From contig NC_087077.1 in assembly GCF_026151205.1 (NCBI RefSeq), positions 5,790,483-5,854,482 of the forward strand: a DNA stretch of 64,000 bases, given 5' to 3'. This stretch comes from Bolinopsis microptera. Its lineage: Eukaryota; Ctenophora; Tentaculata; Lobata; Bolinopsidae. Both the position numbers and the translations under genes were made by a program. The notes below the pieces were generated by a model. The model did no database searches and was not told the DNA's origin. It saw only the letters and a program-made list of their open reading frames with translations. This document shows, piece by piece, positions 9,820-60,965 of this stretch (positions are counted from its first letter, which is position 1; each line of letters opens with the position of its first letter).

Positions 9820-9935
9820 CCTGATTCTAATGAGGCAGCTAGAAACTCTCTTTCACAACCTGATTCTAATGAGGTAGCTAGAAACTCTCTTTCACAACAT
9901 GATTCTAATGAGGCAGCTAGAAACTCTCTTTCAAA
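9616..9935 (+). repeat. 39-bp coding minisatellite (13-residue repeat), eight copies
   Basis: Units start at a 39-bp spacing (gattct at 9628, 9667, 9706, 9745, 9784, 9823, 9862, 9901) and encode variants of QPDSNEAARNSLS. One CAA has become TAA (9817-9819), so the last three units lie beyond the stop. The frame would otherwise close about 40 codons later (TGA near 9941). Confidence 0.93.
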
Positions 9936-10824
9936 ACGGTGAGACAGCGAGGGATCCCTTACCACAATCTCAATCCAATGAACTACTGACTTATTTTGAA
10001 GATAGCGAGGGCCGTGGAAATATTGACAGACCCGATTCAGAGGAATCTTTTAAGTCCATTCACCATTGACTGGGAATGAAAATGAGGTCATAAAAGATTA
10101 GCTTTTACCTTACACTCATAATAATAGAGTCTGTTAAACTTTAGTTCAGAAATTAAACGGTAACTAACTTGAATGAATATTTACTTGCTTACAATATATG
10201 TGTATTTATTTCGTTATTTCATTCATTAATTAAAGTGATCTATATTTACTTGTTATTTTGTTTTTACATATTTATAAATTTATATCATGATGTTTACTGC
10301 AATTCGTTACTGACTCGAATAATTCAAAATTTAAACAATAACTCTATTTTTAATTGGCTGAATCCTGATGCGGATTTTCTGCGGAAGATTGCTTACGAAA
10401 ACGTAAATAAAATTAACAATGTTTTTGATTGATCATCTTTCACAGCGAAAGTGTTTGACTTTTAAATGTGCCGAACTCACTTCAAAACAACTTTATCACT
10501 AAATGTTATATATACTTTTATAATCTCGATGTTAAATTGAATGAGACAAGATGTTTCGATGTAAAATTTAGTTTCCAACAATAGTCAGTCACGACTACAG
10601 TTTTTAAGATTTGGAGCGCCTCTAGTAGGCTGAATGGAGTTCTATGTCTTCCGTTAAAACTATCTCTTGAATCAAGTTTTGGGGAACAGGCGCACAATAT
10701 GCATTGTACAATTCAACTGAACACTTCGGCAACTCACATGAAACTGTTATTCGTTTTAACTAAAAGTTCTAAAAGTCTTAAACTCAGAGTTGTAGCACGA
10801 TGTAAAGAGCTAGAAGAGAACTTG
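9936..10824. other. Intergenic, AT-rich
   Basis: Between the DC-STAMP-like and RNF212-like genes. It contains one AT-rich frame (10169-10432) of Tyr/Ile/Phe/Asn-rich residues with no recognisable domain, which I do not call a gene. It probably holds the 3' UTR of the former and the promoter of the latter. Confidence 0.5.
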
Positions 10825-19400: not shown

Positions 19401-22400
19401 ATTTGTATTGAGAATTCGGTGCGCAGTTACGTGATCTAGTTTGTAAATTTCATCTAGTTCAAGGAGTGGTTTTATGTATCGATTTTTTTTTTTTTTTTTT
19501 TTTTTAGAGAGGCTGGGCCAAGATAGCCCACGAGAGGATAGCATTGAGATGCTCTGCCTACCTCTGGGGTGTGGCAACCTTGGGGAAGGTTGCCGGTGAA
19601 ATCAGAGTGATTGGTGGAGGATGGTGTAAGATGATATATGAGTCAAAATGATACGCTTAAATGCCAGCTGGGTTTGGAAAAGTAAAACGAGACGAGACAG
19701 CATATGAGCTAATACTTTAAGCCACCCCGGTCTGATCCAGCTCTTCCGGCACAATTAAGCGTTTGGTGCGGTTTGCGAAATTGACAATTGTGGTGATGTG
19801 TTGGTTGTCGAATATGTCATTGACAGAGAGGTAGTAGTCCTGGAAATATTGACCTCTAATTTGGGCAATAGCTGGACACTGTCCAAGGAAGTGTGAGACA
19901 GTTTCCTCTCCGTCGCCGCACATAGGACAAGCACTGGTGTTTGATTTGCAAATGGTGTGAAGGTGTTTGTTTAAGCCGCAGTGACCCGTGATGAGGTGAA
20001 CTGCAGTTCTGTAATCTTGTCTGTTTTTGCTGAGTGTAGTGTTGAGGTTTTTGATGATTTTGGCATGCTTGTGGCCGAGTGTCAGTTTGGTGTGTCTGGG
20101 ACCGTCAGTTAACCAAGTTTCCTGATTCAGTCTGTTGACTTTGTTGTCGATTTGACGCTTGATGTAGGATTGTGGAATTGGACACTTCAAAGTGGATTCA
20201 CTGGTTGTACCAAGCTTGGCCAGCTCATCTGCTTTTTCGTTCCCCCACAATCCGATGTGTGCTGCAATCCATCGTATCTCTAGCGTGTTGTTGGATCCGA
20301 GTGCATTAAGAGAGTCGTAACAGTCTCTTGTAGTTCTACTTCGCGTTGAAAGCGCAGAGATAGCTTGTATAGATGAGAGACTGTCAGACCATATGATGAT
20401 ATGTGTGTTGGTATAGGTAGAGAGATATTTGCAAGCTTCAATGATGGCGGTGAGCTCTGTTTGGTAAACAGTGCAATAATCAGGGAGCTTGAATGATCTT
20501 TCTTCAAGGGTGGTGTTATTGTTGTCAGTTGTGATGATATAGCCAGCCCCGCATCCTGAGTCTGTGAGTGACCCGTCAGTGTAGCAGGTGATCGTTTCAC
20601 TGGTAATGTTGTCGATGGTGTTTTGAAGTGAATTTCTATATTCAGTGGTATCGGCTCCAGGAGTTGTGACGGTGAAGTGCCGTCCCAGCATCATGGTTGG
20701 TGTTGTTAGGTCTCTCGTTGCTCTAGGTGGGATAATGAGGTCTGCCATGAATTGTTTGTTGATAGTGGTATGATTTTTGATAGTTCCCTTCCTGAAAGCG
20801 ATAGTTTCAAGAGTGAGGCTGCCATAAGCTTGTAGCCTGGCCGCACCCTTTGCTGCTTCGCCTTGCAGGAACAGTATGATGTCAGAAGTGTCGGTGAGGT
20901 GATTCAATGCGATAAAAGGTGTGCTTGGCATGGCACCAGACATCATTCTGAGTGCCAATGCCTGAACACGTTTGAGTTTCTTCGCGTTATAGTCCGTTTG
21001 AGTGGCCCTGATCCATATACTACAGCAGTAGGATAGGATTGGACGGATGACAGCCGTGTACATCCATTTGCATGTTTTGGGGCTCATACCCCATGTGGGG
21101 CCGACAGCTCTTCGACATTGCATGAGGGATGCCGTGGCTTTTTTGGTGGTGTTGATGATATGTTCATTGAAGTTGAGTTTGCTGTCCAAGGTCACTCCTA
21201 GAAATTTAGCAGACTTGGAAAGACCTATAATGTTGTTGCCAACTGTTATAGGTCTTAGAGTCCACTTACTATTCCAGGTAAACATGACTATCTGAGTTTT
21301 AAGGGCGCTAATAGATAGCTCTTTGGTTCTGCACCAATTTTCTATCGTTTTAATAGTTTTGCATGTTCGGTCCCAGATGATGTCTAAATCATCCCCTTCC
21401 GCTAGAGACAACAGATCATCCGCAAAGGCTTGCAGGTAACCCGGGATGTCTTTTGCGGTAAAGGAAAGGAGATCGTCGACTACCAGGTTCCAGAGAAAAG
21501 GAGAGAGAATGCCTCCTTGGGGGCAACCTCGCCTGATCCGTACCCTTCTCGACTTATCCTTATGATTTAGTGTGATGAATCGATTGGTTACCATGTTGAT
21601 GATCCACTGTGCTGTAGCCAAGTCCACTTTCGTAGCCTTGACTGCTTCAGATAGGTAGTGCGCCATCGACAGTGAGCCGCGCGTGCCGACTGTAGGATGG
21701 TTTTTTAGCGCTAATTTCGGCCAGCACAATTTTCTTCAAACAAATAGATATTGAGTATCCTTCCCGACCTCCAATTGCAACAAAAATTGGTAAGCTTACT
21801 TAAAGACTTACAAGGAAAGTGTCCGAAAAATGTAAAGCATATCCAACCATCAGACATTATGTTACAGCTAAAAGTAGCATATTTTGCCCCATTTTGATCA
21901 CTATATCAACTCCGATATCCACCAAATTTTTCGGACAGTTGTGAAAGCCCTATTGGAAGGTCGTCGCCAATTTCCAGAATGATCTCATTTAAGGAACTGA
22001 AGATAAATCCGAATAATACGACAAAAATGGTCAAATTTGGACGAATTTGGTCAAATTACGAGACTTTTACAGCTACTTTTGCTCCAAAAGCCGCGCACCA
22101 TCAAATATGGCACCTAGGCGAAACTCACTGATCTTTCCAAAAAGGTATGACAAATTTGGTATTGGGGAAATTCTCACAATCTTTAGAAAACAGTGGTACA
22201 AAAATTTTTAAAATCCGAGCAAGTTTATTTTTATCGTGCACCTCCTACTTCAGAGATAGCCTTGAACGAGACATTATCGAAGGCGCCCTCTATATCTAGA
22301 AAGACACCTAGGACATATCCTTTCTTGGCTATTCTGCGCTCAATGGTGTGAGTAACTTTATGAAGTGCCGCTTCTGTGGAGCAGCCCTTTTTAAAGCCGA

Positions 22401-28500: not shown

Positions 28501-31500
28501 ATTTATCATACATGAACTGTAGGCACCTAAATTGAATTGATTAGAATAAGTAAGTCAAAGATTTCGTTTTCCCTAATAGAAGTTTCGATAGTAAATAAAA
28601 GGAAAAATGTGTCAAAATGTATTTAATATACATTCAATTAAATCAAGTGATGCGATTGGCAGAGCACAATCAAATTTTTAGTGTTGCAATTGGCAGAGCA
28701 CAATATTTTAAATCTTTAACAATCTAATATATAAAAGTTTCAAAACGCATGATCTGCTCCATTATTTAGACTCCATTAAAGGGGCAGGGATGAGATTGTA
28801 GGAGACTTCTGATAGATGGATCTCATGTTTGGTGTCCACCTTCTTTCCCCGGTACTTAATTAAAAGAATATCCATTTGAGCATATATATTTTTACAATTG
28901 GTCAAAATATGGGTAAAAAGAAACAATAAACATATAATAACATTTATTGGAATGCGAGAATTTGTATTGTGGCAGGTGGTTGATTTAAGTGCTCCAAGAA
29001 ATAATTTTACTTTACAATAGGCAATGATGAGTGGCAGGATTTTGTAGCCCACTAATAAACATTCATCTTCAAATCTTTCGAAAATGGCATTATCTCATAA
29101 AGCAATATATTCTTGGTTTAAAAAGACAAAAAAGAAATTTTCAAAAGAAGCCTATAGAAGAAATTCTGCTTGTGTGCTTGTAAGAAATATCAATCATCTA
29201 TACGATGGGAGTTGGGACATAAGATTAAAGGCTCATAATGTTAAGTTATAGAAGTCAAGCACATTGATGCATTTGGGACAAGCCATTAGAACTCACTGTA
29301 CGGCCTCAAGTAGGAAAAATTGTGTGCTTCGTCATGGAGATGGTATGTGAGAATTCATAGACCTGTGATCTACAACAATCAATATGTTACCAATGATTTG
29401 AATATCTTTGAAAGTGTCAGATCGAGGATTCAATGAAATCTTATTTGGAGATTTTCACTTTATATCAAAGAATAGGTGATATGATGTTCTATTCTTCATA
29501 TATGTATTTACAAAAGGTCGTGAGCATACAGTCTCAAGTCTACAAACATCATTTCCCGAAACTTGTGGACGATATCAAATTTAAAGCTGGAAAAATATCA
29601 GCCAACAATACAATTTGCTTAAATAGTAAAGAATACGAAAGTTAACATCAAACTAGGCGGTTTGTTTGTTCATAAGTAGTCATTTCTTCTGCATTAGAAT
29701 TAGCGCTCGATTCATCAGGCTATCTATCTATGCATAACAATAAAAATGTATACAAGCTATATTAAAATGACTCTAGATGCATCAATTACCAAATAATTAA
29801 TTGTTTCAAAATTTATATACTGTGGTCGTACGTCGATTTTTTAATTCAAAACATGGAAATGGGTAGCGCATGGTCGCGCGCGCAACAATAAGGTCGCATT
29901 TGTGATTTCAATATTTTACATGACGTACGCGTAACGCGCGGACGCAAGCGCGACTAGCAGCGCCAAACGGGATAGAAAATAGCGCGGCTCTATTCAACTT
30001 GGTCCCATCGTGCCTTTTGAAGTAATTTAACGTTAAGCGAATTGATTGATAAATCAGAGGAATTCTTCCTGTTTCTCCCCAAACACCGACATTTGATGCT
30101 TTACGATGGACTCCCAATGCCCATTTTAGGAATGAAATATGCACTCTTTCTTGCAGAGAGGCGCTGATTTTTTTAAGTAAGTTAGTAGCGGTTGCTTCTG
30201 TCGAGTTAATCGTTTTGCAAATTAGAGATTTATTGATCGTACTAGTGGGTGTCCATATCGGAGCACCATATAATAAAATGGGCTTGATGAGAGAGTCGAA
30301 CAGTGTAAGGAGTGCTTTAAAAGATAACTTTGAACGCATGACAACCCTTTTCAGGCCAAAAAATGCACGCATTGCTTTGGTTTTAAGGTTTTGTTGAGCA
30401 ATCTGTACTTGACCCGATTGATGAAGTTCAAATCCAAGGTAACAATAACTGTCAACAATTTCAAGATTAGATCCGTTGAGTGTAAATTTGATGTTTTGTA
30501 TGTCCTGTTTTAACGTTTTCTTACCAAAGATGACTGCTTGAGTTTTGAGTTCATTGATTTCAATGCCCCACTCCTCACAAAAATTACCGAGAATATTAAG
30601 TTGCTTTTGAGTGGTTTCCTGGTCGAGTGAAAGGAGTATAAGGTCATTCGCCCACAGTAGGTGGCTTACAGTCATATTTGAAAGTACGGGGCAATTTGGA
30701 AAATCTAGGAGGCAGGACATATCACTGAGAAAAACTTTAAAAAGATCAGGTGAGAGTGGGTGACCTTGTTCTGTACCTTTACGTATCTGAAAGCGTTTAC
30801 TGAGGTGACCAGATAATTTTATGTAAGCGTACGAGTTTGAGTACATATTTTTGAGGACATTGTAGAAGTTCCCAGTTATGCCATTTTTTGCGAGTTTGAG
30901 GAAAAGGGCTTGACGGCAGACTGAGTCGAATGCTTTTTTAAAATCAACAAATACTGCATATACAGGTTTCCCCAAAAGTTTATATTTTGAAGCTATAGTT
31001 TTCATGGTTAGTATGTGATCGTATGTTTGAGCTTTCTTTGTGAAGCCTAGTTGGTTAGGTGGATCAGGGCAGTTTTCAGAGCAGAAGTGAATGAGTCGTT
31101 CTAAGAGAATAGTTGAGAATAGTTTTCCTATGACACTGCTGACAGCAACTGCACGGTAGTTGTCAGGATCTGATTTATTTCCCTTTTTATGAAGTGGAGA
31201 TATAATGCTGACGTTCCAGGGATAAATTCCTTGTGAGAAGCAGGCGTTGAAGAGGTTCAACATAATCAATTTATGATTGGTGTCCAGAGATTTTATAATT
31301 TCGTTATTAATCATGTCGAGTGAGGAAGCTTTACCATTTTTAGGGATTTTATACTAGAGTCAAGTTCTGTTTTGGTGATTAAGGAGTTGAGTGACTCAGG
31401 ATGAGTTGCATCTTGATTTATCAAGTCAGCTTGATCAATCATAGAAACTTTTTTATTTTCATTTATTGTTTTGTGGTTATCGGAATATAGGCTACCAAAA

Positions 31501-34500
31501 AAAGTCTCGAATCTATTCATATCATGACTGTCAAAATTTAAAGTTTCCTTTTTCTGATTTTTTAGTTTTTTGAAAGATTGCCAGTTGAGAATTTTCCCCC
31601 CCTCTATGTCCTCATTCATACGTGCGAAGAATTCGTTTTTGGCAGAGTTCTTCAAACGCTTATAGCTACCCTTGACAAGATAATAGTTTTCACGTATAAG
31701 GTTGTTTGACGGGAATTTTGAGGTTGCATCTGTAGCTTTACGAAATTCTCTTTTACCTAATCTCGTTTTCCAGTTAAACCAAGGTTTGTTTGAGGTGTGA
31801 GATTTTTTGGGTGGTTTGGTTTGTTTGAAACACTTCGAGGCCATGTCGCGAAGATGTTCTGAAAGTCGTTTGTTAATGTCTTTGAGTTCAGTTTCATAAT
31901 TACGGTCATTGTCTGCTAAAATATTTTGATTGGTGAGTAAGTCGATGTTTGATTGAAGTTCTTGGATTAAGGTCAATGATAGATTTTCTGACTGAGCTTC
32001 GAAAAAGTCGTCTTTGTTCTCTTCGTTGATAATGTATCTGGTTGGCGCTGTCTGATAAGTGTCCTGTAATGGGGCGCATTTGTTGATCGCGAATCTATTG
32101 CATTTTAATTCAGTACTGAGGGGCTTATGATCAGAATGCTCGGTGAATGTCAAGATTTTGAAGTAGTTGATTCTGATCTTTGTGGAGTTGGTCACTGCAA
32201 TGTAATCAATAACGCTGCACCCATTTTTTTGGATACTTGTGAAGTTTCCTACAAGATCTCCTAGGGTACGGCCATTCAGAATAGTGAGTTGGTTATGTTT
32301 GACTAGGTTAAGAAAGTGTGTACCGTAAGTATTTGTGATAGAGTCTAGTGAGTTTCGGGGGAGAAAGTTGTCAGGCTCATAATCGTCTGGTAAGGGAACA
32401 ACGTTGGTTGAGTCTTCTCTTATCATACCCGTTTTTTGTCCTATACGAGAGTTAAAGTCCCCACACAATATGACTTCGCCCTCCTCCCGAAGTTCGTTCA
32501 CAACGTCTTCAATGTTTTTTAGAGCATCTTTGCCATTGTCAGTCGGGTTTGAGGCTGATGAATTAAATGGTCTAATGTAAACGTTAACTATGAATGTATC
32601 TTCTGATAGGTTAAAGAAATCCTTGTCTAGTCGACAAACTAGGTAGTCTGAACACTTTGTATTCTTGATAAACTCAATCCCTTCAATAAGCTCATTTTTA
32701 ATGAGGATACCGACACCTCCTGATTTACCGTCTTTCCTTATGTTGCAGATTGATCGATATCCTACCAAGTGAACCTCTCTCCTAATTTCCTGAAGACAGG
32801 CTATGTCATGATCTTTGATAACATTTTGAAATGATTCTATTTCAAATTTGCTCCCATCTACTGATGAAGGCGATTGGATATTCCAAGAAAGTATTTTTAT
32901 GCTATTTTTATTAATTGAAACCTGTGTATTTTTTTTGTGCGTTTCTAGTCATGGTATAATGTGTATAAATGAGAATCTATGTCAGTGTAATCACATTCGA
33001 CTAAGAGGAGAAGGTTCCAATCCTCCTGTAGAACGGACTTTCTTTGGCTTGTTGAGAAGCAGTCTTGTCATTTCATGGATGCTGTGACGGAAGTTTCCTA
33101 GGATGACCTCTTTGCCTCTTGTTGAAAGGTGGACTCCATCGTTCGTGTGATACTCTCCTATCAGATGATCATCATGCATGAAGTTTGCGTTGGGGTTGTA
33201 ATACAAAGACCGCTCTTTGAAGGGTTTGCGTTCGTTTTTATTAGTTACAGTCACAAATTCCCAAATTGCATCCCTTATCTCCCCAATCTTTGCGTTCGCT
33301 TCATTGTCAGATGTCATTAGCGGCATTGAGAAGAATAACTTTGTACCTATCAGGGATTCCTCTACGAATAGTGAAAATTGAAATATGTTGTCGAGACTTA
33401 CCCTTAGGTCGAAGTTTTGGTTGGCATCATTGACTCCTAGGTGAACATAGATGAAATCAGGTTGTGTTCTTAATAATTCTTCTTTGACATGTTGGTCTTT
33501 AAGTCCGCCTGTGTCCCGCTTGTTGATTAGGGTCAATTCATGGTTCTTTCCGAGAGCATTCTTGGTGTCCATACCCTGGACATGTCTCAGGATTGAGTCT
33601 GAGATGAGGGTCGTCTTGAACACTTTTGAGGGTGTGGTGGATCCTGAAGTTTGACGAGTGAAGTCGGAGTTCTGAGTTCTGGTGAAGGCGGAGTTCTGAG
33701 TCCTGGTGAAATTGAGGTTCTGAGTTCTGGTAAAGTTGGAGTTCTGAGTTTGAGTAGAGTTCTGAGCTCGAGAGGCCGAGGAAGTCATGCTGAATCCATT
33801 GTTTCTTCGGGACAGCAGGTTGTTTTCTCTACTGTGAGTTCTTTGATCTCGAAAGGGTGAGGGAGGTTGGTAGGGTGGAGTGTGTGATAAATCATCGTCA
33901 TTAGGGGAATAGTCAGGTGGGACATCGGTACTCGCGCCATTCCATCCTTCTGACTGAGTGACTATTTTGTGAATTTCTTTAATCAGCTGTCCGTCTTCCC
34001 GAAAGAATGCACTGTTGTAGTAGTTTTTGAGGTCAAACTTTAGTTTTTGAACACTTTTGTCTACTTCGTCCGTTTTCGTTTCCGCTATAGAAATCTCCGT
34101 GAAAACTTCGTCTACTCTGTTTTTGATCCGTGTGGTAGCTGACAAGTTTTTCTCCCAGAGGTCTTTGACCTTTTGCATTTCCTTCTTGCCAACCTCGAGT
34201 AGTTTTTCGATTTGCTGGATGCTAGTATCGGAGCACTTAAGACTGTTAACCTCAGATGTAAGTTTCTCCAACTCCTGCTTAACGTCAATAACTTGGTTCT
34301 CGATAATAGTCTGGACCCATGCGAGAGAGGGGAGTTTCGAATCTAAGTCCCTATTCAGAGAGCTCCTTGCTGGTTCTTCGGGTCTAGACATCACATTCAT
34401 CATTCTTGCTCTCCTTTCTGTAACAGATCCTTCTGTGGAGCACCATGTGATCCATGGATTGAATTTAATTGACATAGAAATGTTCACATGTCAATTCTGT

Positions 34501-48364: not shown

Positions 48365-51300
48365 TTATGCATCAATCCTTCGGTAGATCGGCGAGATGCA
48401 CCACTGTGCCTCACCGAGCTGCGAAGGATTGACATCGTGAATCAAGATATTAACCTTCTTCCTCTTAGCTACCAATGGATTCTCTTTCATATAACTTACA
48501 TAACTATTCCTATTAGACACAGACACATCTATCCTATCAAAGATGTCATATGAAAGTTCCCAGTGATGACCAAGCTTATTAGCTCGATATCCATGAAGCC
48601 GAAAGGCATCTAATCCTCTCTTGAAACCAGTAACTGACTCACTAGCTTTCACAAGTGGTGGTAGACTGTTCCAATAGCGCAAGACCCTTTGGGCAAAGAA
48701 ATCAGTCTCATTTGTGGTGAATCTATGAGTCTTTGATCTAGCAGCAACGGTCCTACCAGAACGACCAAATAAATCGGAACCATAACCCACAAAGCCTTCC
48801 TGGATCTTGAACATCTCAATGAGATCTCCACGAACCCTGCGTTCAAGCAGGGTTGTGAGGTTCAGCTTATCCAGTCTCTCTCTGTACGTCATGAGTCCCA
48901 ATCCATCAATCATACGGGTGAACGATCTTTGAACACCTTCCAATTCAAGAATCAGTGACCAGTTTCCATGCCTAGCCATTGGAGCCCATGCCTGTGAACA
49001 ATACTCTATATGAGGCTTTACTAAAGACTTATACAAGCCCAGCATAACGCTTTTCTCCCTCGATATAATATTTCTTGTAAGCCAGGCAATGGTACTATTA
49101 GCTTTAGCAATGCACTTTCTCACATGACCCTCAAAGTTGAAGCTGGTGTTAAAGACAACTCCAAGGTCCTTCTCGCTTTCAACACATCTCAAAGGCACAC
49201 CACCAAACAAGTACTGATTCTTAGGATTACAAGAACCAATTTGCATGACCATACACTTATCTACATTAAAATTTAAACACCAACGAGACTCCCAAAGTTC
49301 TAGCAACTTCAAATCAGCTGCTAGATTAATAAAAGGATTAACAATCATTTTAACATCATCAGCGAAAAGTTTGATGATAGCTTTGATTCCTTCTGGAAGA
49401 TCATTTACAAATAAAAGAAAGAGCAATGGTCCCAAAACACTGCCTTGGGGCACTCCTGAAAGTATATACTTAATCTCAGAAAATTCATCTCCTACTTTAA
49501 CTTTCATAGACCTCCCTACTAAAAAGTTTTCTAAAATACCAATTATCTCCTCAGGAACACCAACATTTCTTAATTTAACTAATAAACGGTGGTGTGGTAC
49601 GCTATCAAAGGCCTTAGAGAAATCAAAGTATAATATATCAGCACAGCCACCTTCAGCCAGCAAGTCATTGACAGCGTCAATAGACTCCAGTAGGTTAGAT
49701 AAGCATGACCGACCCTTCATGAAGCCGTGCTGCGTGCTACTAAGCACCTGTTCAACACCGTCGAGAATATACTCCCTAAGAAGCTTCTCATAGGCTTTGC
49801 ATAGTATACAAGTCAGTGACACAGGCCTGTAATTATTAGGACTATGTACTGACCCCTTTTTGTGCAAGGCCACAACAGTGGCAGTTTTCCATACCTCAGG
49901 AATATACTGCTCAGAAGCACAGGCACTAAACAGCAACACAACCGCGTCCACAAAGGAACTGTTCTCACTTAAATACCTCAGGAGTCTAGGATGAACACCA
50001 TCAGGACCCATAGCTTTACTAATATCTAGTGATCCCAAAATCTTGGCAACACTTTCAGGGTGCACCATAAATTTACTCCAGAAGTAATCATTATTACATT
50101 CTGTATAACAATTTTGAGGCAGAGGGCCAAAAGGTTCAGGTTTAAAAACTGACTGGAAAAAATCAGCTAACACTTCTGCCGTTTCAGAAGGAGACTTGGT
50201 CTCAGAACCATCATCTGTTTTAAGTCTTTCTACAGATTTTCTTAAAACACTTTTAGATTTAAGGTAATTAAAAAGAGGTTTACAATTTAACTTAAACAAT
50301 TTAGTCACTTTATTCTCATATTTGATCTTTGCCTTAATCTCAGCGTTCTGGTACATCCGCTGCTCGTACTCGGCTGCGTTAAACATCACCATCGTAGGGT
50401 CCTCGTCAAAATCCTTCCATGCCCGGTCCTTGCACTTTCTTTTCCTAACCAGACTAGAGCAATCCCAGGGTAACCTCTGTAAGATCTCCCCACCTTTAGT
50501 TGTTTTAAGGTGGGTGGTTGGAACACGATCTGAAATGACACTACGTTTTTGGTGTAATTCTTCCCACATCTCTTCGACCTGAAGATCTTCTCTAGAGTAC
50601 CCCCAGCTGATGTCTGATGACTGTGTGTTAACAAAGTCCTGATCCACCTTATACCAGCTTTTCTTCTTAGATGTAAGGAACTCGACATTGTTTTTGACTT
50701 TCAGCTCGACCAGTAGTGATACATGATCGCTTTTACCCAGAGGAGCAAGGATATCAACATTATTTACAAAACAATCATTATTGCAGAAGACCTGATCAAG
50801 CAAGGAGCATTGAGTTGTATCACCAACCTTCCTGACACGTGTCGAAGACCCAGTGACATACCACTTCAAACCTTTCCTGGTAAAGACATTCAAGAATTCT
50901 GATTCCATCAGCAACCTTCTGTCACATGAGTTTGGTGGGCGCTCGACTAGACTTTTGTCCCAGTTAACATGAGGTAGGTTCACATCGCCAACTATCACCA
51001 ACTCTTCATCCGCATTAACTGGTAAACGTTCAAGAGCACCTAACAGGCCAGCATTGTCCTTCATATCAACAAGTGAAGTAGACCGATACAGACAAACAAC
51101 ATTGAACCTAACAGAGTCGATTACAATATTTACCGCAAGTGATTCAAGACCAGTAAACCAATCCAATCGTTCTACCCTCAGTGCTTTGTGGACAAAGATA
51201 GCAGATCCCCCAAAACGTGTATCATTAGGTCTGTCTGCACGAAAGAGGTTGAAATTAGGAATAGACACTTCAGCGTCAACAATATCTGAATTTAGCCAGG

Positions 51301-51397
51301 ACTCTGTCACACAAATGATCTGAACGTCGTGAGTCTCTGACAAAACCATGAGTTCCGTCATCTTATTGTACAGGGAATTAGCATTAGTGTACAGCAT
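48365..51397 (-). CDS. LINE-D ORF2: APE endonuclease and reverse transcriptase
   Basis: 1010 codons without interruption. Endonuclease (about 1-235): NANSLYNKM, Glu32 in VTESWLN, FGGSAIFVHK, GDVN with Asp138, SDH at 223-225. A linker follows, then RT (about 450-740): HKKGSVHSPNNYRPVSL, FDFSKAFDSV (Asp592), GVPQGSVLGP, FADD at 678-681. The C-terminal CR1-type domain has WAPMARHG, RERLDKLNLTTLLERRVRG and NSLPPLV. The protein nicks target DNA and primes reverse transcription from the nick. The start overlaps the region just downstream of the ORF1 stop. It could be competent, but its ORF1 is frameshifted. Confidence 0.92.
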   Translation of the reverse strand: MLYTNANSLYNKMTELMVLSETHDVQIICVTESWLNSDIVDAEVSIPNFNLFRADRPNDTRFGGSAIFVHKALRVERLDWFTGLESLAVNIVIDSVRFNVVCLYRSTSLVDMKDNAGLLGALERLPVNADEELVIVGDVNLPHVNWDKSLVERPPNSCDRRLLMESEFLNVFTRKGLKWYVTGSSTRVRKVGDTTQCSLLDQVFCNNDCFVNNVDILAPLGKSDHVSLLVELKVKNNVEFLTSKKKSWYKVDQDFVNTQSSDISWGYSREDLQVEEMWEELHQKRSVISDRVPTTHLKTTKGGEILQRLPWDCSSLVRKRKCKDRAWKDFDEDPTMVMFNAAEYEQRMYQNAEIKAKIKYENKVTKLFKLNCKPLFNYLKSKSVLRKSVERLKTDDGSETKSPSETAEVLADFFQSVFKPEPFGPLPQNCYTECNNDYFWSKFMVHPESVAKILGSLDISKAMGPDGVHPRLLRYLSENSSFVDAVVLLFSACASEQYIPEVWKTATVVALHKKGSVHSPNNYRPVSLTCILCKAYEKLLREYILDGVEQVLSSTQHGFMKGRSCLSNLLESIDAVNDLLAEGGCADILYFDFSKAFDSVPHHRLLVKLRNVGVPEEIIGILENFLVGRSMKVKVGDEFSEIKYILSGVPQGSVLGPLLFLLFVNDLPEGIKAIIKLFADDVKMIVNPFINLAADLKLLELWESRWCLNFNVDKCMVMQIGSCNPKNQYLFGGVPLRCVESEKDLGVVFNTSFNFEGHVRKCIAKANSTIAWLTRNIISREKSVMLGLYKSLVKPHIEYCSQAWAPMARHGNWSLILELEGVQRSFTRMIDGLGLMTYRERLDKLNLTTLLERRVRGDLIEMFKIQEGFVGYGSDLFGRSGRTVAARSKTHRFTTNETDFFAQRVLRYWNSLPPLVKASESVTGFKRGLDAFRLHGYRANKLGHHWELSYDIFDRIDVSVSNRNSYVSYMKENPLVAKRKKVNILIHDVNPSQLGEAQWCISPIYRRIDA

Positions 51398-51429
51398 CCT
51401 GATACCCTGTGATTCCTTTACGCAACTCG

Positions 51430-52450
51430 CTACTCGTTTTTTGACTTCACAGCATTCTGGACAACATCTTCTTTATTATCCGCATGCTCTACATTTGTTA
51501 CAGGAGCCACATCAGTTGGCAGTTCCTCTTTGGGTGGTTTGTCAGCAGTTACTTTCGTCCTCTTATCAGTTTCCAGTTTAGCATTGCGTGTGTTCCACCG
51601 GATATCTCGATCCGCCTTGATCAAGTCAGGATTTATCCACACATCATCACTTTTCTTTTTTCCATGATAAGCAAACCCGCGTCCATGGTTGTGTGTGTAA
51701 GTAGCTAACTCTTCACTCTTTAGCTTCGCAATGACCATTCTTCCCCTGTACTTTGTACGGTTGACGTTGCCAAATACACCTATTCTCTTTGCTGATACTA
51801 TGTCACTCTGGTTAAGATCTGTTGCATGTCGACAGATGATAGCCTTTAGTTGTTCCTGACTCTCATTTTCCTTATCTTCATCAGGTAAGTTTGACAGAAC
51901 AATGTTATTCTCCCGCTTTTTCCTTTCCTGCATGTTAGCATCAATCTGTTGTGAGATGGTGGTTATTGCAGGGCCTGCTGCGTGCTGACACACTTCAGCT
52001 ATCAATTTCTTCTGCTGCCCACTGGCTATCTCAGCCCAACTCTATCTTCTTATTGGCTTCTGAAACAACATCATTTACAAGAACCTTCTGGATAGATTGT
52101 TCCACACTGGCGCTGACAGCAGTCTGTATAACACTTGTCAGTTCTTTAGCAACGTCATCAGTAAGTTTTTCAAATTTGAGTTTCTCAGGCAAAACGAAAC
52201 AAAAGTGGCAGTTCCACACTGTCAGCTTCTTGACATCTGTAACGGTTAGACCAGCCAAACCGGCACAACTACTATGCCACCAATTCTCACATGTTGAACA
52301 ACCTAGCCAAACAATCTTCTTTCTCGAAAGTGGTTCATCATACTTCTGACAATAGAAGCATATCTCCTTTCTCTCGTTAGTTTCTGTACTGGCTGGGTCA
52401 CTATCGATGTGCCCCGTTTGCCCGCCATTGTTAGCCATCCCTGAACTCAA
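51430..52450 (-). pseudogene. LINE-D ORF1: PHD finger, coiled coil and RRM-like domain, frameshifted
   Basis: First part (52450-52031): a C4HC3-type PHD-like finger (CFYC, CSTC, WWHSSC, WNCHFC) followed by a helical region. Second part (to 51430): KRENNIVLSNLPDED and an RRM-like RNA-binding domain as in LINE ORF1 proteins, then a Lys/Glu-rich tail. The two parts join through a single frame break between about 52005 and 52031 (the frame reading EIASGQQKKL continues the protein). A PHD finger in ORF1 is known for some CR1-clade LINEs and could target the particle to chromatin. Confidence 0.82.
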
Positions 52451-53480
52451 ATTATTTGTTATATAGTAGTGTTGAAAGTATTAAAAATCTGCGGGGTTTT
52501 GATCTCATCATCGAATCAGTAATCTTATCAGTGTGCCTCATTACGCTGTACCAAGCGAGTTTGAGATTAATCTTATCATTCACATGAATTCCGAATTCAA
52601 CATTGGATACTTAAAATCAAACATTCATACAACAATAATTGTTAAAAATAAAATGATAGAAATGAAAAACTTGCAGAACACATAGAACCTCGTTAAACTC
52701 CGACTAGCTTTTGAACTCTGGGTTCATCTTGTGGATAATTTCCATCAAATGATGCTTTAGCTGTATCCCAGTGGCTGAAAGTGAGAAATCTTGGAATGAG
52801 GTTCCTAACCAATTTCTGTGATTGAAGTTTAAAAGTTCAGTTCAGTTCAGTTCAGTTTAGTCCCGGACGGCTTTAATCCGTAACCGGGTTTCTCCTCCGG
52901 AGTAGGACCTCAAATTTTACTGGTAGAGGTCCGCCGTTCGGCCTCCCTTCTAAGGGAATCCACGGAGATAGGTGCGAATAATGGGCTATCTGGATAAGCC
53001 TTCAAGCCCTCGCAGATCCTTAAGTATCGTCCTTTCTGTACTGGCTGTGCACATGAGGACTTCCCAGCGACCTGTGGGACAATATGTCCACTGAAACCAA
53101 TGCAACAGAGCAGAATTATTAAGACATAATCGTCCCGAGAATTAATGGCCAGATGTACAGGCAGCCAACTGACCATTTTCCTCACGTGAGAGTCATTCCA
53201 TACTAATCATGTGTTGGGACAGTGAAAGACCCTCAGAAATTCTGTCCCACCTCCTAAAGTTTCTGCGAGGAATTGATTGGGTTCAGTTTTGTGGTTATTG
53301 TTTGATCAAGTTATAATTGGACGTGCTTGTGAGAGGTTCACAGGATTTCAGTGTCGTGGGGAGGCTGGAAGATCTCTCTTTTTGGATAGGGTTTCAGATT
53401 TTGTGAAGAATTTGATTATATTTTTAGTACTTATAGTTAGATAGATACTTATTATATTTTTAGTACTTATAGTTAGATAT
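52451..53480. other. Spacer between two LINEs with small repeats
   Basis: Contains a cagtt pentamer array (52833-52857), a GC-richer patch with an unassigned minus frame (52910-53185) and an imperfect duplication of tatatttttagtacttatagttagata (53428-53480). The 24 bases ccaatttctgtgattgaagttt at 52809 recur at 60940, indicating a shared LINE relic. Confidence 0.5.
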
Positions 53481-53482
53481 AG

Positions 53483-54640
53483 AAACCCACTATATTTGAG
53501 AATAGGACAGTTGCATATTATGGGGACTTTCCATACGCTTACAATGGAGGCTTTCATAACACAAGGCCAGTAGCAGACAATCCCTACCTAAAGTCTATTT
53601 TAGAACGCTTACGCTCACAGTTCCCAAAGTTGAAATTCAATAGTGCTATGATTACCAAGTATAGAAATGGTCAGCAAGGAATTCCCTTTCACTCGGATGA
53701 CGAGAGGTCAATTTCACCAGGCTCCATGATGTCCACCATCTCTTTAGGGGCTACTAGAGTCCTAAGCTTCAGATCCAAACTGAGAGCTCATATTGCTGAC
53801 CTTACCCTCTCCCATGGTGACATAATGAATATGACCAGACAATCCCAGACCAGCTTTGAACACAGCCTCATCCAGGACAAGTCTAAAACCATGAGAATAA
53901 GCATTACTCTGCGCCTAATTGATGGCAGCGCAACCTTATCCACTCTGTCTGATGTTTCCAGTCAAGTTAAGAACACTGAACCCTCGGCCCCTAAGACTAG
54001 ATCAATAGAACATTCTGGTAAATCTTTGTGTGTCTACATTAGCTCTAGTATGTTCTCCAAATTAGAGGGAGAAAAGCTATCGTCCAAACATCATGAGGCA
54101 CCTGTATTCAGCTACCCTGGTGCCACAGCCAATGCAATCAATGAACGGTTTCAATCAGATGTAAGAAAAGACACTCTTAATACCAATAATGTGAAAAGCA
54201 TTGTACTTATGTGTGGTACAAATGACGTGGACTCTATCCTGAACAGCCCTCGCAACATGAGGACTAAACTTCTGTGCCCTGATAGTTTTTCTGGTGATGC
54301 TAGAGCTCTTGACTTTACAAACAATTGTATTGAAAAACTTGTACTTTTCCTTCACAAGTGGGCACCTGGAGCTGATATTAAAATTGTTAACTTATTACCT
54401 CGGGAGAGTTTCTCCAGAAACAAGGTTATAACAGATATCAATGAATGTATATCAAATCTGCAAAGAAAATACACCTATGTAAAACTGCTCTCAACCGAGA
54501 CAAATCGTTTCTTGTTTAGTGATAAGAAAGGCTTTAGAAAATCGTCATTTTTTAGTAGTTATGGAGAGGATAATGTCCATCTCAATGATTATGGCATAGT
54601 TAAATTAGCAAGGCACTTGAAGTATCATGCACACCATTAG
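53483..54640 (+). CDS. LINE-E ORF1: AlkB-like 2OG-Fe(II) dioxygenase fused to SGNH hydrolase (5'-truncated)
   Basis: Open from just after a TAG at 53480-53482 to 54640; the first in-frame ATG is at 53648, inside the domain, so the true start is lost or upstream. Residue numbers here count from 53630. The AlkB core shows an N-terminal substrate lid (YYGDFPYAYNGGFH upstream), MITKYRNG, the iron ligands His21-x-Asp23 in FHSDDE, SPGS, ISLGATRVLSFR, HGDIMNM, distal His78 in FEHSL, and the 2-oxoglutarate Arg pair Arg89-x5-Arg95. The second domain (about 131-332) is an SGNH hydrolase: YISSSMFSKL (Ser140; GDS is replaced by SSS), CGTND (195-199) and Asp314-x-x-His317 in EDNVHLND. AlkB enzymes remove alkyl groups from nucleic acids, SGNH domains are usual in CR1/L2-type ORF1. 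Function in the element is inference: repair or demethylation of element RNA/cDNA. Confidence 0.85.
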   Translation, partial: KPTIFENRTVAYYGDFPYAYNGGFHNTRPVADNPYLKSILERLRSQFPKLKFNSAMITKYRNGQQGIPFHSDDERSISPGSMMSTISLGATRVLSFRSKLRAHIADLTLSHGDIMNMTRQSQTSFEHSLIQDKSKTMRISITLRLIDGSATLSTLSDVSSQVKNTEPSAPKTRSIEHSGKSLCVYISSSMFSKLEGEKLSSKHHEAPVFSYPGATANAINERFQSDVRKDTLNTNNVKSIVLMCGTNDVDSILNSPRNMRTKLLCPDSFSGDARALDFTNNCIEKLVLFLHKWAPGADIKIVNLLPRESFSRNKVITDINECISNLQRKYTYVKLLSTETNRFLFSDKKGFRKSSFFSSYGEDNVHLNDYGIVKLARHLKYHAHH

Positions 54641-54795
54641 AATACTGCTGAATACTGACATAACACTCCTACCATCAGTTTTATTTTTACAGTACGACAT
54701 CCAGACAAATACAACCTGCTTTTATTCTGTTTTTCAGTTTAAACACAACTTTACAACTTTTATTCATTCCATTGTGAATTAATAAGATTTACAAG

Positions 54796-57771
54796 ATGAC
54801 AAATTTTAATAATGCAGCTGATAGGTTTCACAACCTCTGCATTGGTCATTGTAACATTCAAGGAGGGCTTCTTAATTTAGGTAAAAGTAATGAACTTTCC
54901 CAACTTATTAGAGATCATAAATTAGACATACTTTCCCTAAATGAGATGAATCTTAATGAAACTATTGACACAGACACCATAAATATTCCTTCCTCCTTCA
55001 ACCTTATGCGATGCGACAGGCCAAACAGTTCTAGGGGTGGTTGTGGCTTAATGATAAACAAAAAACTAGCTTACACAGAATTAATTATGGATAGTAAGCT
55101 TGATAACATTGAAGCATTATGGGTGAAGCTTAAGAATAGCAAGATCAATGTTTGCTGCTTCTATCGCTCTGGAAATTATTGCAGTGTTGATAACTTTATT
55201 GAATACATTAATTTTTGCATGAAAAAATTGAATGGGAAAAAGGTTATCTGGATTGGGGATATAAACATTGACCAGAATAATATCTCATCCACCCAGTACA
55301 AAAAATTAGATATGACCTTGAGATGTTACAATCTAGTTCAAACCATTCAAGGGATAACTAGAGTTGCTAAACGTGGAGACAATTTTACCCAGACTACTAT
55401 TGATGTAATATTCACTAACTGTTATGCAGATTTTGTTCAATCTTCTGTTCTTGATGAACGTATTGGGGATCATCAAGCTATTATGTGTGAGATAGATTGT
55501 AAAGTACCTATAGCTCCTAAATTTGAAAAGGTTGAAATTAGAAATCATTGTAAACGTAATGTTAAACAATTCTTAGACTATCTAGATACCTGTTCTGATT
55601 ACAGTCCACTATTGGAAAGTGCAGATGTTGAAGCTATCACTGCTGGCCTTTGTCATCATATTGAACAGGCATATGCAACCTTCTTCCCTTGCAAGACCAT
55701 AGAAAGGCATGAAAAGTTCATACATAAACCTTCTACTGAACTTTTAAATGCCATTAATCATACACATTTTCTTCTAAAGAAATTCCGTAAAAAGAAGGAT
55801 AAGAGAGACAATGGAAATTGCAATAAATGTGGTACATGTAGCAAATGTATAAAGTGTAATGAGGCCTGGGATTGCTACAAGATTCAGAGAAATATTAGAA
55901 ATAAATTAGCTAAAACCTGCAAAAAGGCTAATGTAATCGATGATCTACAAGTTAAAAGTGCCAAGAATGATCTTAAAGGGATATGGAAAACTATCAAACT
56001 GGCATCAAATATGACCCCTGGTACAACTAATTGTCAAACTATCAATGAGAATGATCCTGAGCTATTTAACTTTCATTTTGCAAATGTTGGATCAATATTA
56101 CAAAATCAGGCCCCCAATATTGAAAGAGTTAGTTTTACTGATTTTTTACCTCCTAGAACTTCTAACATCTCATTTGATAGATTCCAAGAAATAAATGAAA
56201 CTGATATCCTAATGTATGTCGAAACTCTCAAGAATGACAAGGCCTCATATGACGATGTGCCTCTATTTTTACTTAAGCAAGCTGTACCACACATAGTTGA
56301 GCCACTGACCCATATTGTCAATTTGAGCCTTAATACAGGTGTTGTACCAACCCTTTGTAAAAAAGCTAGAGTAACTCCCATCCATAAGGCAGGAATGAAA
56401 GATGATCCTAATAATTACAGGCCAATATCCATCCTTCCACTTGTAGGAAAACTTATAGAAAACTTTGTCGGCAAGCAACTCACTGATTACATGGAAGAGA
56501 ACAAACTTTTCATCCGGCATCAATATGGCTTTCGGAAAAATCACTCCACAACTTATTTGATGTACGATCTGATGGACGAAATATATATGAGTAAATCTAA
56601 GTCTTATAAACCAGGAATCATCTTTCTTGATCTTAAGAAGGCCTTTGACACAGTGAATCATGAAATATTGCTTCAAAAATTGGCATATTATGGAATTGGT
56701 GGCATTGCTTTAACCTGGTTTAAGAACTTCTTATCTTGTAGATATCAATGCACAAGGATCAATGGCAAACTAAGCTCATTTTTAGAAGTTCTGAGTGGTG
56801 TACCACAAGGAAGCATCATTGGGCCTATATTATTTAGTATCTTCATAAATGACATCATTTATGCCTGTAACCTATCTAAGCCCTTTCTATTTGCAGATGA
56901 TGGTGCACTATTCTTTGATCAAACCTGCAGAAGCACATTTATAAACATGAAAATAGAACTTATGACAATCTTTAAATGGCTCAGTGTTAATAAGTTATCA
57001 CTCAATGAAAAGAAGACTGAATTCCTATTATTTGATTCTGTTGATAAACATGATGAATTAACCATTGAATGTGATGAGGTAACTTTCACAATCAAGGAGT
57101 GCAAAGAGACAAAATATCTTGGCCTCATTCTAGATAGTAAATTAAACTTCAAAAGCCATGTAGATTATATTATTAGGAAGGTCATGAAGAGAATTGGTGC
57201 CATGTATAGAAGTAAAGCACTGCTACCCATTAAATATAGGAAAATGTTTGCCAATGCACTCATGTTGCCACAATTCGATTATTTAGACACGATCTATTGT
57301 AGAGCTGGCAAGACAAAACTTGCTGAACTTGACACTCTGTACAAAAAGGTAGCCAAAATAGCTCTCAACGTTCCACAAACAGAGAGCAGCCTTAATGTTT
57401 ATAGAGACATGAAATGGTTACCACTCCATCTTAGACGACAACTCCATCTGTCAAATTATATGTTTAGAATCATCCATGACAATTGTCCTACAAACTTTAT
57501 GAACAAATTTAGTTACATATCAGGAGGTAGTAGGAGCGGCGAAAGCTGCAACCTATATGTTAATAGATCAACATCACATAAAAACTTTCAATACTTGGGG
57601 GCAAAATGTTGGAATAATGTTCCAACAGATCTACGAAATCTGCCCGATGTTAAAAGCTTTAGTGATTCGTATAAGAAACAGCTACTCTCATCTATAACAA
57701 CAGACCCTTATTATACCGTCGACAATTCATATGACAAATTTTACACTGCAATCATAGTCGACGATAACTAA
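54796..57771 (+). CDS. LINE-E ORF2: APE endonuclease and reverse transcriptase with Cys-rich linker
   Basis: 991 codons, uninterrupted. Endonuclease (1-235): HCNIQGG, Glu50 in SLNEMN, GGCGLMIN, Asp155 in WIGDIN, Asp225-His226 in GDHQ. Between endonuclease and RT, residues 342-360 hold six Cys at regular spacing (C-x2-C-x2-C-x2-C-x2-C-x5-C) at a place where related LINEs have only a basic helix. RT (about 470-760): HKAGMKDDPNNYRPISIL, Asp612 in LDLKKAFD, GVPQGSIIGP, FADD at 699-702. The C-terminal domain has MKWLPLHLRRQLH and CWNNVP. Start ATG at 54796, 155 bp after ORF1. All catalytic residues are present, so this copy looks recent. Confidence 0.93.
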   Translation: MTNFNNAADRFHNLCIGHCNIQGGLLNLGKSNELSQLIRDHKLDILSLNEMNLNETIDTDTINIPSSFNLMRCDRPNSSRGGCGLMINKKLAYTELIMDSKLDNIEALWVKLKNSKINVCCFYRSGNYCSVDNFIEYINFCMKKLNGKKVIWIGDINIDQNNISSTQYKKLDMTLRCYNLVQTIQGITRVAKRGDNFTQTTIDVIFTNCYADFVQSSVLDERIGDHQAIMCEIDCKVPIAPKFEKVEIRNHCKRNVKQFLDYLDTCSDYSPLLESADVEAITAGLCHHIEQAYATFFPCKTIERHEKFIHKPSTELLNAINHTHFLLKKFRKKKDKRDNGNCNKCGTCSKCIKCNEAWDCYKIQRNIRNKLAKTCKKANVIDDLQVKSAKNDLKGIWKTIKLASNMTPGTTNCQTINENDPELFNFHFANVGSILQNQAPNIERVSFTDFLPPRTSNISFDRFQEINETDILMYVETLKNDKASYDDVPLFLLKQAVPHIVEPLTHIVNLSLNTGVVPTLCKKARVTPIHKAGMKDDPNNYRPISILPLVGKLIENFVGKQLTDYMEENKLFIRHQYGFRKNHSTTYLMYDLMDEIYMSKSKSYKPGIIFLDLKKAFDTVNHEILLQKLAYYGIGGIALTWFKNFLSCRYQCTRINGKLSSFLEVLSGVPQGSIIGPILFSIFINDIIYACNLSKPFLFADDGALFFDQTCRSTFINMKIELMTIFKWLSVNKLSLNEKKTEFLLFDSVDKHDELTIECDEVTFTIKECKETKYLGLILDSKLNFKSHVDYIIRKVMKRIGAMYRSKALLPIKYRKMFANALMLPQFDYLDTIYCRAGKTKLAELDTLYKKVAKIALNVPQTESSLNVYRDMKWLPLHLRRQLHLSNYMFRIIHDNCPTNFMNKFSYISGGSRSGESCNLYVNRSTSHKNFQYLGAKCWNNVPTDLRNLPDVKSFSDSYKKQLLSSITTDPYYTVDNSYDKFYTAIIVDDN

Positions 57772-58690: not shown

Positions 58691-58768
58691 GTACTGTGTT
58701 TTTTGGTGTCTTTATTTCATAGTAGTTCTTCTACGTAATGTGAGAATGGGTTTTCCAAAGGTGTATTG
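58691..58768 (-). pseudogene. LINE relic, 3' portion, left of the foldback insertion
   Basis: Minus-strand continuation (QYTFGKPIL...) of the LINE fragment at 60791-60960. The two are separated by the foldback element and share its 7-bp target duplication. Confidence 0.55.
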
Positions 58769-60790
58769 GGGGGGTGTCACGTCCGTCTATGTCCGCTTGT
58801 CTCATAGAATCCAAAAAGGACAGGACATAGGCGGACATAGGTGGACATAGGCGGACATAGACGGACATAGGCGGACATAGACAGACATAGGCGGACATAG
58901 GCGGACATTAATAGACACCTAAATTGCTAAATAAAATGTTCAAATTTTGCTGTTATAGGGGGATCATGTTTTTTGTCCGTTCGGTACCCTATATTTTCAA
59001 AACGGACAAAAAATAGAGTGGACAAAAACGGTCAAAAATGGACAAAAACGGACAAAAATGGAAATAACATTTAGATGCTTCCTCCTCCTACTCTTCCTCC
59101 TCCTCCCCCTGGGTCTTCCTGATCTTCCTCAGTCCTCTTCCTCCTCCCCTCCTCAGTCCTCCTCCTACTCCTCCTCCTCGTCCTCAGTCCTCCTCAACAG
59201 TCCTCAACAGTACTTCTCCTCCCCAGTCCTCCTCCTCCTCCTGGGTCCTCCTCCTGGGTCTTCCTCCTCCTCCTCTTCATCCTCCTCCTCTTCCTCCTCA
59301 GTCCTCAGTCCTCCTCAGTCCTCCTCCTCATCCTTCTCCTCAGTCCTCCATCCTCCTCCTCAGTCCTCCCCCAGTCCCCCTCCTCCTCCTCCTATTCAGT
59401 CCTCCTCCTCCTCCTCCTCCTTCTCAGTCCTCCTGAGTCCTCCTCCTCCTCCTGAGTCCTCCTCCTCCTCCTCCTCCTCTTCCCTCTCAGTCATCCTCCT
59501 CCTCCTCTTCATCCTCCTCCTCAGTCCTCCTCCTCCTGGGTCCTCCTCCTCCTCTTCATCCTCCTCCTCTTCCTCCTCGGTCCTCAGTCCTCCTCCTCCT
59601 GGGTCCTCCTCCTCATCCTTCTCATCAGTCCTCCTCCTCCACAGTCCTCTCCCAGTCCCCCTCCTTCTCCTCCTCCTATTCAGTCCTCCTCCTCCTCCTC
59701 AGTTCTCCTCAGTCCTCCTTCTCATTTCTCCTAAGTCCTCCTCCTGAGTCCTCCTCTTCCTTCTGAGTCCTCCTCCTGAGTCCTCCTCCTCCTCCCTCTC
59801 AGTCATCCTCCTCAGTCATCCTCCTCATCCATCCTCCCCAGCCATTCCTCAGCCATCCTCCTCAGTCCTCCTCAGTCCTCCTCCTTCTCAGTCATCGTCA
59901 GTCCTCCTCCTCAGTCCTCCTCCTCCTCCTGGGTCCTCCTCCTCCTCCTCCTCCTGGGTCCTCCTGGGTCTTCCTGATCCTCCCCAGTCCTCTTCCTCCT
60001 CCCCTCCTCAGTCCTCCTCCTACTCCTCCTCCTCGTCCTCAGTCCTCCTCACCAGTCCTCAACAGTTCTCCTCCTCCCCAGTCCTCCTCCTCCTCCTGGG
60101 GCCTTTTCCTGGGTCCTCCTCCTGGGTCCTCCTCCTCCTGGGTCCTCCTCCTCCTGGGTCCTCCTTCTCCTCCTCAGTCCTTCTCCTCCTCCTCCTCAGT
60201 CCTCTTCCTCCTCCTCCTCCCTCTCAGCCATCCTCCTCAGTCCTCCTCCTTCTCAGTCCTCCTCAGTCCTCCTCCTGAGTCCTCCTCCTGAGTCCTCCTC
60301 CTGAGTCATCCTCCTCAGTTCTCCTCCTCCTCCTCCTAGGTCCTCCTTCTGGGTCCTCCTCCTCCTGGGTCTTCCTGATCCTTCTCCTCCCTCTCAGTCA
60401 TCCTCCTCAGTCATCCTCCTCAGCCATCCTCCTCAGCCATCCTTCTCAGCCATCCTTCTCAGCCATCCTTCTCAGCCATCCTCCTCAGTACTCTTCAGTA
60501 CTCTTCAGTACTCTTCAGTACTCTTCAGTCCTCAAAATGTTTGTCCGCTAATGTCCACCAATGTCCGCTAATGTCCACCAATGTCCATCCAAGTCCGCCA
60601 ATGTCCGTCCGGGTCCGCCAATGTCCGTCCGAGTCCGCCAATGTCCGTCCGAGTCCGCCAATGTCCGTCCGAGTCCGCCAATGTCCGTCCGTGTCCGCCA
60701 ATGTCCCAAAAAACACGTCCGTTGTCTCATAGAATCCAAAAAGGACAGGACATAGGCGGACATAGACGGACATGACACCCCCCCCCCCCC
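58769..60790. mobile_element. 2.0-kb foldback-like element with 7-bp target duplication
   Basis: Flanked by tgtattg (58762-58768 and 60791-60797). Ends are inverted: a G-run, then gtgtca(c/t)gtccgtctatg and tccgc. Subterminal arms are built of decamers ggacataggc/ggacatagac on the left (58826-58910) and ccaatgtccgtccgagtccg-type units on the right (60541-60705). The segment ctcatagaatccaaaaagga is present in direct orientation near both ends (58800, 60727). An 11-bp ggacaaaaacg array lies at 59004-59060. The core is a polypyrimidine tract. No protein is encoded. Confidence 0.8.
59066..60535. repeat. 1.45-kb polypyrimidine (CTCCTC) minisatellite core
   Basis: Almost pure C/T on the plus strand, built of tcc and longer units such as cagtcctcctcctcc and tgggtcctcctcctcc, ending with agtactcttc and agccatccttctc arrays. 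Open frames through it (Ser/Pro/Leu-rich) are repeat artefacts. Could adopt triplex structures. Confidence 0.95.
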
Positions 60791-60965
60791 TGTATTGTCT
60801 TTTTTTTGTGAAGGCTGCACAGTCTAGTAGGATGTGCATGGCAGTTTCATTTTCCTCAGCGTCTTTACAGTAGTCACATTTTGGGCTGCGCTGTCTGCAA
60901 GTTTTGCTCGGAAGGCATGGTTGTTGAGGTTGTTGTGTCCAATTTCTGTGATTGAAGTTTTAAAA
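60791..60965 (-). pseudogene. LINE C-terminal Cys/His knuckle relic, right of the foldback insertion
   Basis: Minus-strand frames give PKCDYCKDAEENETAMHILL followed by DCAAFTKKRQY, the C-x2-C...H...C knuckle found after RNase H in I/Jockey-like LINEs (compare CPMCGDGEE in LINE-A). Its reading is cut at QY by the foldback element. Confidence 0.7.

Follow-up and report, generated by a model that had tools for sequence, protein, structure and literature searches.

Does the LINE examined here carry, in its first open reading frame, a nucleic-acid demethylase of its own, and if so, on what would the enzyme act? The question is raised by the frame at positions 53483–54640 (+ strand) of the window, the 64-kb stretch of DNA that was analysed. 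This frame (ORF1; 385 residues, stop to stop) is predicted to encode an AlkB-type 2OG-Fe(II) dioxygenase joined to an SGNH/GDSL domain. The AlkB domain spans positions 53495–53929 (+; approximately residues 5–149 of the frame) and is assigned from its Pfam match, from the appearance of ALKBH2 and ALKBH3 in a search of the PDB, and from residue conservation. The profile 2OG-FeII_Oxy_2 (PF13532) matches residues 27–144 (E-value of 2.4e-17 and 64.3 bits, with a curated cut-off of 31.2), and the best solved structures found with phmmer are human ALKBH2 (1.8e-12) and ALKBH3 (2.7e-11). An AlkB fold is predicted, and the frame carries the family signature H70-x-D72, H127 and R138-x5-R144, which we take to comprise the iron and 2OG residues. 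For the first His, this role agrees with the part of a published account that treats it (PMC10816986). The first-pass annotation of this DNA had recognized the signature in the frame upstream of ORF2, as the profile match above cut-off bears out; its residue numbers, His21, Asp23 and His78, do not fit the frame.

The remainder of ORF1 (53930–54637, +) comprises a linker and the SGNH/GDSL domain. The profile Lipase_GDSL_2 (PF13472) matches residues 206–371 below its cut-off (E-value of 1.6e-4 and 22.7 bits, with a cut-off of 32.9). The SGNH set is composed of S189, G213, N247, D363 and H366, the presumed catalytic residues, and all five are kept in 113 of the 116 alignment rows that contain at least 160 residues of SGNH, in agreement with the earlier placement of an SGNH domain after AlkB. 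No transposon esterase is among the matches of this part in the PDB.

The element is classed from its sequence as a LINE, with ORF1 preceding an ORF2 predicted to comprise an APE-type endonuclease (EN) and a reverse transcriptase (RT). The copy, traceable by protein matches (tblastn and reading frames) over 53473–57771 (+), consists of a 5'-truncated ORF1, a 155-base spacer and an open ORF2. ORF2 extends from its first ATG at 54796 to its last base at 57771 (+) and matches PF00078 (5.2e-36) and PF03372 (1.7e-6), consistent with the intact EN-RT frame described previously; no RNase H was seen in it with Pfam. In the PDB, the RT matches only LINE-1 and R2-type reverse transcriptases. A search with ORF2 returned 155 relatives at E ≤ 1e-20, and among the best 120 of these 155 the FADD motif is kept in all 120 rows with letters there, while endonuclease residues such as E56, D161, N163, D231 and H232, which we presume to be functional, are invariant where present. 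Between the endonuclease and the RT lies a Cys cluster (C348, C351, C354, C357 and C360 of the ORF2 frame; 55819–55875), partly conserved among the relatives (57 to 95 rows). For three ORF1/ORF2 cluster pairs, the two clusters share the size of the longest contig (834619, 203281 and 1427895), consistent with both ORFs of each pair lying on one contig; these three pairs are the source for the pairing outside the window. A fourth pair, P0097/P0151 (3850), was rejected, as proteins of 657 and 997 residues exceed 3850 bases.

The window copy is best described, from its matches to relatives, as a 5'-truncated insertion with a short deletion near the front of ORF1 and with approximately 159 N-terminal residues absent. 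The match of the ORF1 frame to its nearest relatives starts at 53495 (tblastn). Just upstream, seven residues identical to residues 160–166 of the relative P0004 are encoded at 53473–53493 (+) in a frame that differs from the rest; this remnant has an E-value of 3.6 alone and was accepted for its position, and it would imply that a few codons are missing between it and the main frame. Residues 1–159 of P0004 have no match in the window better than E 1.2, and the first Met of the frame falls within the AlkB part, so that a whole ORF1 in the window was rejected. The front piece of another relative, P0003, matches the window inside another LINE (E 0.026, 23% identity), which was taken for chance. 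The frame differs from the relative P0001 at 4 of 381 residues, which suggests a young copy; one of the four differences is Met83, where 112 of 113 rows have Ile. Between the two flanks of the traceable copy only short, chance-like repeats were found and no clear target-site duplication. A 29-nt direct repeat, with two copies 36 bases apart, is located at the 5' junction (53415–53479).

Relatives of ORF1 define a family in which the AlkB domain is a standing component with its catalytic residues kept. The search returned 121 proteins at E ≤ 1e-3; the best 120 of the 121 span 31–99% identity and, with the window frame, make up the 121 rows considered here. The database consists of predicted open frames, and decayed copies are therefore under-sampled. 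Both domains are present near full length in one frame in 106 of the 121 rows. At least 120 residues of AlkB are found in 111 rows (110 relatives and the window), and the residues H, D, H, R and R are unchanged in all of these. Shorter pieces occur in eight more: P0061 and P0091 break off within AlkB with all five residues kept, and P0085, P0093, P0108, P0114, P0115 and P0119 begin further into the domain, with H, R and R retained where reached. P0120 contributes 20 doubtful aligned residues, with a mismatch at both Arg columns. Copies of the LINE without AlkB, which the first-pass annotation had named as the mark of a one-off acquisition, are represented by P0102 alone, an NCBI protein model from Mnemiopsis in which the N-terminus is joined directly to SGNH and which may reflect a splicing artefact.

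In the 106 two-domain rows, mean pairwise identity is 45% in AlkB and 45% in SGNH, and strict invariance is seen in 16 of the 150 columns of AlkB, the five catalytic ones included (hypergeometric probability of 7e-6). Pairwise distances in the two domains are correlated with r = 0.87 (maximum of 999 permutations 0.16), from which it follows that both were inherited together through most of the divergence of the family. Twelve clusters (P0036–P0046 and P0048) are 87–99.8% identical in pairwise comparison (mean 97%) and have twelve different longest contigs of 0.15–2.4 million bases; this fits a multicopy element in what would be one genome. The AlkB-bearing LINE is a real, conserved and apparently multicopy variant.

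The named animal relatives among the matches listed are three proteins of Mnemiopsis leidyi (P0047, P0102 and P0107). For P0047, the AlkB part is nearest those of P0008, P0006, P0007, P0005 and P0002; for P0107, it is nearest those of P0118, P0116 and P0109; one ctenophore thus holds near and distant members of the family. Two relatives bear labels of bacterial metagenome-assembled genomes (P0121, Cytophagales; P0192, Tenacibaculum) and were taken for animal contigs binned with bacteria. Scans of viral and genome contigs, each with one or two short peptide patterns, found no DNA locus of a relative.

In whole relatives the parts of ORF1 follow one order: an N-terminal part that has a CxxC pair and may form a coil, a linker, AlkB, a second linker and SGNH. 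CxxC is present within the first 70 residues of 79 of the 98 relatives of at least 500 residues, and heptad-like spacing was seen in the N-termini of ten inspected relatives by a crude score used without a control. This N-terminal CxxC/heptad part is absent from the window copy.

Among AlkB proteins of solved structure, those closest to the domain by sequence comparison are ALKBH2 and ALKBH3. A family profile built from 87 of the 120 listed relatives matches ALKBH3 (1.8e-26) and ALKBH2 (1.5e-24), followed by E. coli AlkB (3.5e-6) and ALKBH5 (4.4e-4). Identity to the two human proteins is 23–35%. At the sites that distinguish these two from each other, the domain is like one at eight, like the other at eight and like neither at twelve. 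Tyr143 of ALKBH3, by which the methylated base is held (PMC10816986), aligns with a column (position counted back from His191) where 104 of 106 rows have Tyr. The motif HSD[D/N]E is like that of ALKBH3: its Ser is found in 98 of 106 rows, and Asp or Asn at the bracketed position in 98 as well. The first-pass annotation had called the domain closely like ALKBH2. This holds for the single frame, which prefers ALKBH2, but not for the family, whose profile slightly prefers ALKBH3 and whose separating sites are divided evenly; from this ranking and this division the domain is termed ALKBH2/3-like, with neither protein chosen. Both ALKBH2 and ALKBH3 act on m1A and m3C (PMC10816986, PMC10377887), and ALKBH2 acts on double-stranded DNA too (PMC9921365).

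A search for cellular relatives with the AlkB part only, using the domains of ten relatives as queries, gave seven matches, at least five of which are pieces of the family by appearance; one, P0126, may be cellular. In a tree with human ALKBH2, human ALKBH3 and P0126 as the three outside sequences, the 106 family rows group together with a weak support of 0.54, and a second AlkB tree yielded no usable support value for this grouping; three outside sequences make a poor test of it.

Judged from sequence, repair or demethylation of the element's own RNA or cDNA is plausible, given that the catalytic residues are conserved and the domain is of the ALKBH2/3 type. In the reading that we prefer, and to which we give a probability of about one half, a demethylase of this type borne by the ORF1 protein (ORF1p) would clear m1A/m3C-type blocks from the element RNA or cDNA for reverse transcription. 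ORF1p would coat the element RNA, in keeping with the packaging of LINE RNA presumed for ORF1 proteins (PMC3905857). The AlkB domain would oxidatively remove methyl groups on the Watson–Crick face, such as those of 1-methyladenine and 3-methylcytosine, from this RNA or from nascent single-stranded cDNA, and would thereby keep the ORF2 reverse transcriptase from stalling in the course of target-primed reverse transcription. For the SGNH domain, a role at lipids or membranes may be supposed, as put forward for other ORF1 proteins with an esterase. Both m1A and m3C interfere with common reverse transcriptases, and cDNA synthesis in OTTR, which uses a non-LTR reverse transcriptase of R2, is impeded by m1A and helped by AlkB treatment (PMC12140624).

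The origin and activity of the domain could be read otherwise. Capture of a host ALKBH exon on a single occasion, or an assembly artefact, would accord with the single copy of the AlkB-bearing LINE in the window; it is ruled out for practical purposes by the 120 listed relatives, most with both domains in one frame, and by the correlated distances of these domains. Retention of the domain solely for binding nucleic acid or for the structure of the particle, with no catalysis, has a parallel in Oskar, a known non-catalytic SGNH relative, and would meet the need for a binding role in esterase-type ORF1 proteins, which contain no known RNA-binding domain (PMC3905857). With all five iron/2OG residues unchanged in 111 of 111 rows, we regard such a passive role as improbable.

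Two further readings keep the catalysis and alter the substrate. The domain might be an eraser of m6A (RNA) or 6mA (DNA) that changes how the element is translated, how stable it is or whether it is silenced, as has been proposed for the ALKBH5-like protein of an orchid Ty3/Gypsy element, which demethylates in vitro (PMC9289625). Against the family profile, ALKBH5 scores far below ALKBH3, and an action against m6A methylation by the host is for this reason less favoured; moreover, ALKBH5, an m6A eraser, suppresses L1 in human cells (PMC7873242), so that removal of m6A need not benefit a LINE, and this reading is judged unlikely. Alternatively, the substrate might be DNA: the domain would repair bases alkylated in the cDNA or at the target site, or open host chromatin DNA to insertion. 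The window frame alone is indeed closest to ALKBH2, a DNA repair enzyme (PMC10377887), but the whole-family profile leans slightly to ALKBH3, and the domain resides in ORF1p, thought to package RNA (PMC3905857), rather than in ORF2p; action on DNA is therefore also thought unlikely, and a shade more so. Removal of m1A/m3C-type blocks from the element's own template by ORF1p remains the favoured reading. Its extension, that an old LINE lineage of ctenophores, and perhaps of other marine animals, depends on an ORF1 RNA/ssDNA demethylase that clears its own template, is put forward tentatively, at rather less than even odds. A LINE dependent on such a demethylase would be, to our knowledge, the first with a nucleic-acid repair enzyme of its own.

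The known parts (a LINE, an esterase ORF1 and AlkB) are combined here in an arrangement for which no report was found. The architecture otherwise resembles that of CR1/L2 LINEs with an esterase-type (type IV) ORF1, such as zebrafish ZfL2-1, with which the family shares an SGNH domain at the C-terminus whose catalytic residues are conserved, an N-terminal possible coil and Cys pair, and an ORF2 with APE endonuclease and RT (PMC3905857, PMC4120745). Type IV ORF1 is described as an esterase, sometimes with a zinc finger or leucine zipper (PMC4120745), and an ORF1p with a coiled coil and an esterase has also been described (PMC3905857); the family of the window LINE differs from these accounts in having AlkB between the N-terminal part and SGNH. 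AlkB is not named in the parts considered of either survey (PMC4120745, with zero mentions of AlkB or dioxygenase, and PMC3905857). A literature search with a scope mostly outside subscription papers turned up no LINE with AlkB among the entries listed; papers dealing with tubeworm, krill, methylation in cnidarians and chromatin of ctenophores were set aside, the parts considered being concerned with host ALKBH2 genes or unrelated matters.

Human ALKBH3 and ALKBH2, the best profile matches, possess the same H-x-D, H and R-x5-R set; in the LINE, by contrast, the domain is fused to SGNH within a transposon protein and has diverged from them to the identity given above. The nearest precedent is the orchid Ty3/Gypsy element, likewise a retrotransposon coding for an AlkB-type demethylase. 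That element is a plant LTR retrotransposon with a separate, ALKBH5-like and m6A-active ORF (PMC9289625), whereas the present one is an animal LINE with an ALKBH2/3-like domain fused to SGNH in ORF1. AlkB domains are also present on another type of RNA-based element, the positive-strand RNA viruses of plants, mainly Flexiviridae, where they are thought to repair the viral RNA (PMC544882). There, hosts and proteins are different and, in the authors' view, several of the viruses acquired the domain recently (PMC544882), while the AlkB of the LINE has diverged together with its SGNH partner.

What LINE ORF1 proteins do is poorly understood (PMC3905857). A conserved ORF1 demethylase, if true, would mean that retrotransposition is truly hindered or controlled by the methylation or alkylation of bases in LINE RNA, and would open this to direct testing. 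It would be a natural counterpart of the laboratory AlkB treatment that helps reverse transcriptases past m1A and m3C (PMC12140624). Counts of AlkB-like genes in such animal genomes may also in part represent copies of LINE ORF1.

The surroundings of the copy contain further repeats and mobile elements. Rfam and tRNA scans of the 64-kb window found nothing. Another LINE, at 48365–52480 (− strand), has an EN-RT ORF2 at 48365–51472 and, upstream of it, frames with a weak PHD-finger match (52031–52480; 0.0014, below cut-off). A further LINE, at 29908–34490 (− strand), carries EN and RT in two overlapping frames and an ORF1-like frame at 32991–34490 with a weak GDSL match (0.0011, below cut-off); between this SGNH-type ORF1 and the SGNH part described above, no relation was detectable (hhalign probability of 0.4%). 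An element with RT and RNase H, truncated at its front, is located at 18564–21735 (− strand). Two tandem arrays are present, one of 35 copies of a 21-nt unit (3407–4139; 99%) and one of eight copies of a 39-nt unit within an open frame (9613–9937). Downstream of the AlkB-bearing LINE, the segment 58768–60790 looks like a non-autonomous DNA transposon: 29-nt inverted repeats (58768–58796 and 60756–60784; one mismatch) enclose a TCC-rich satellite, and TGTATT is found directly outside each inverted repeat (58762–58767 and 60791–60796).
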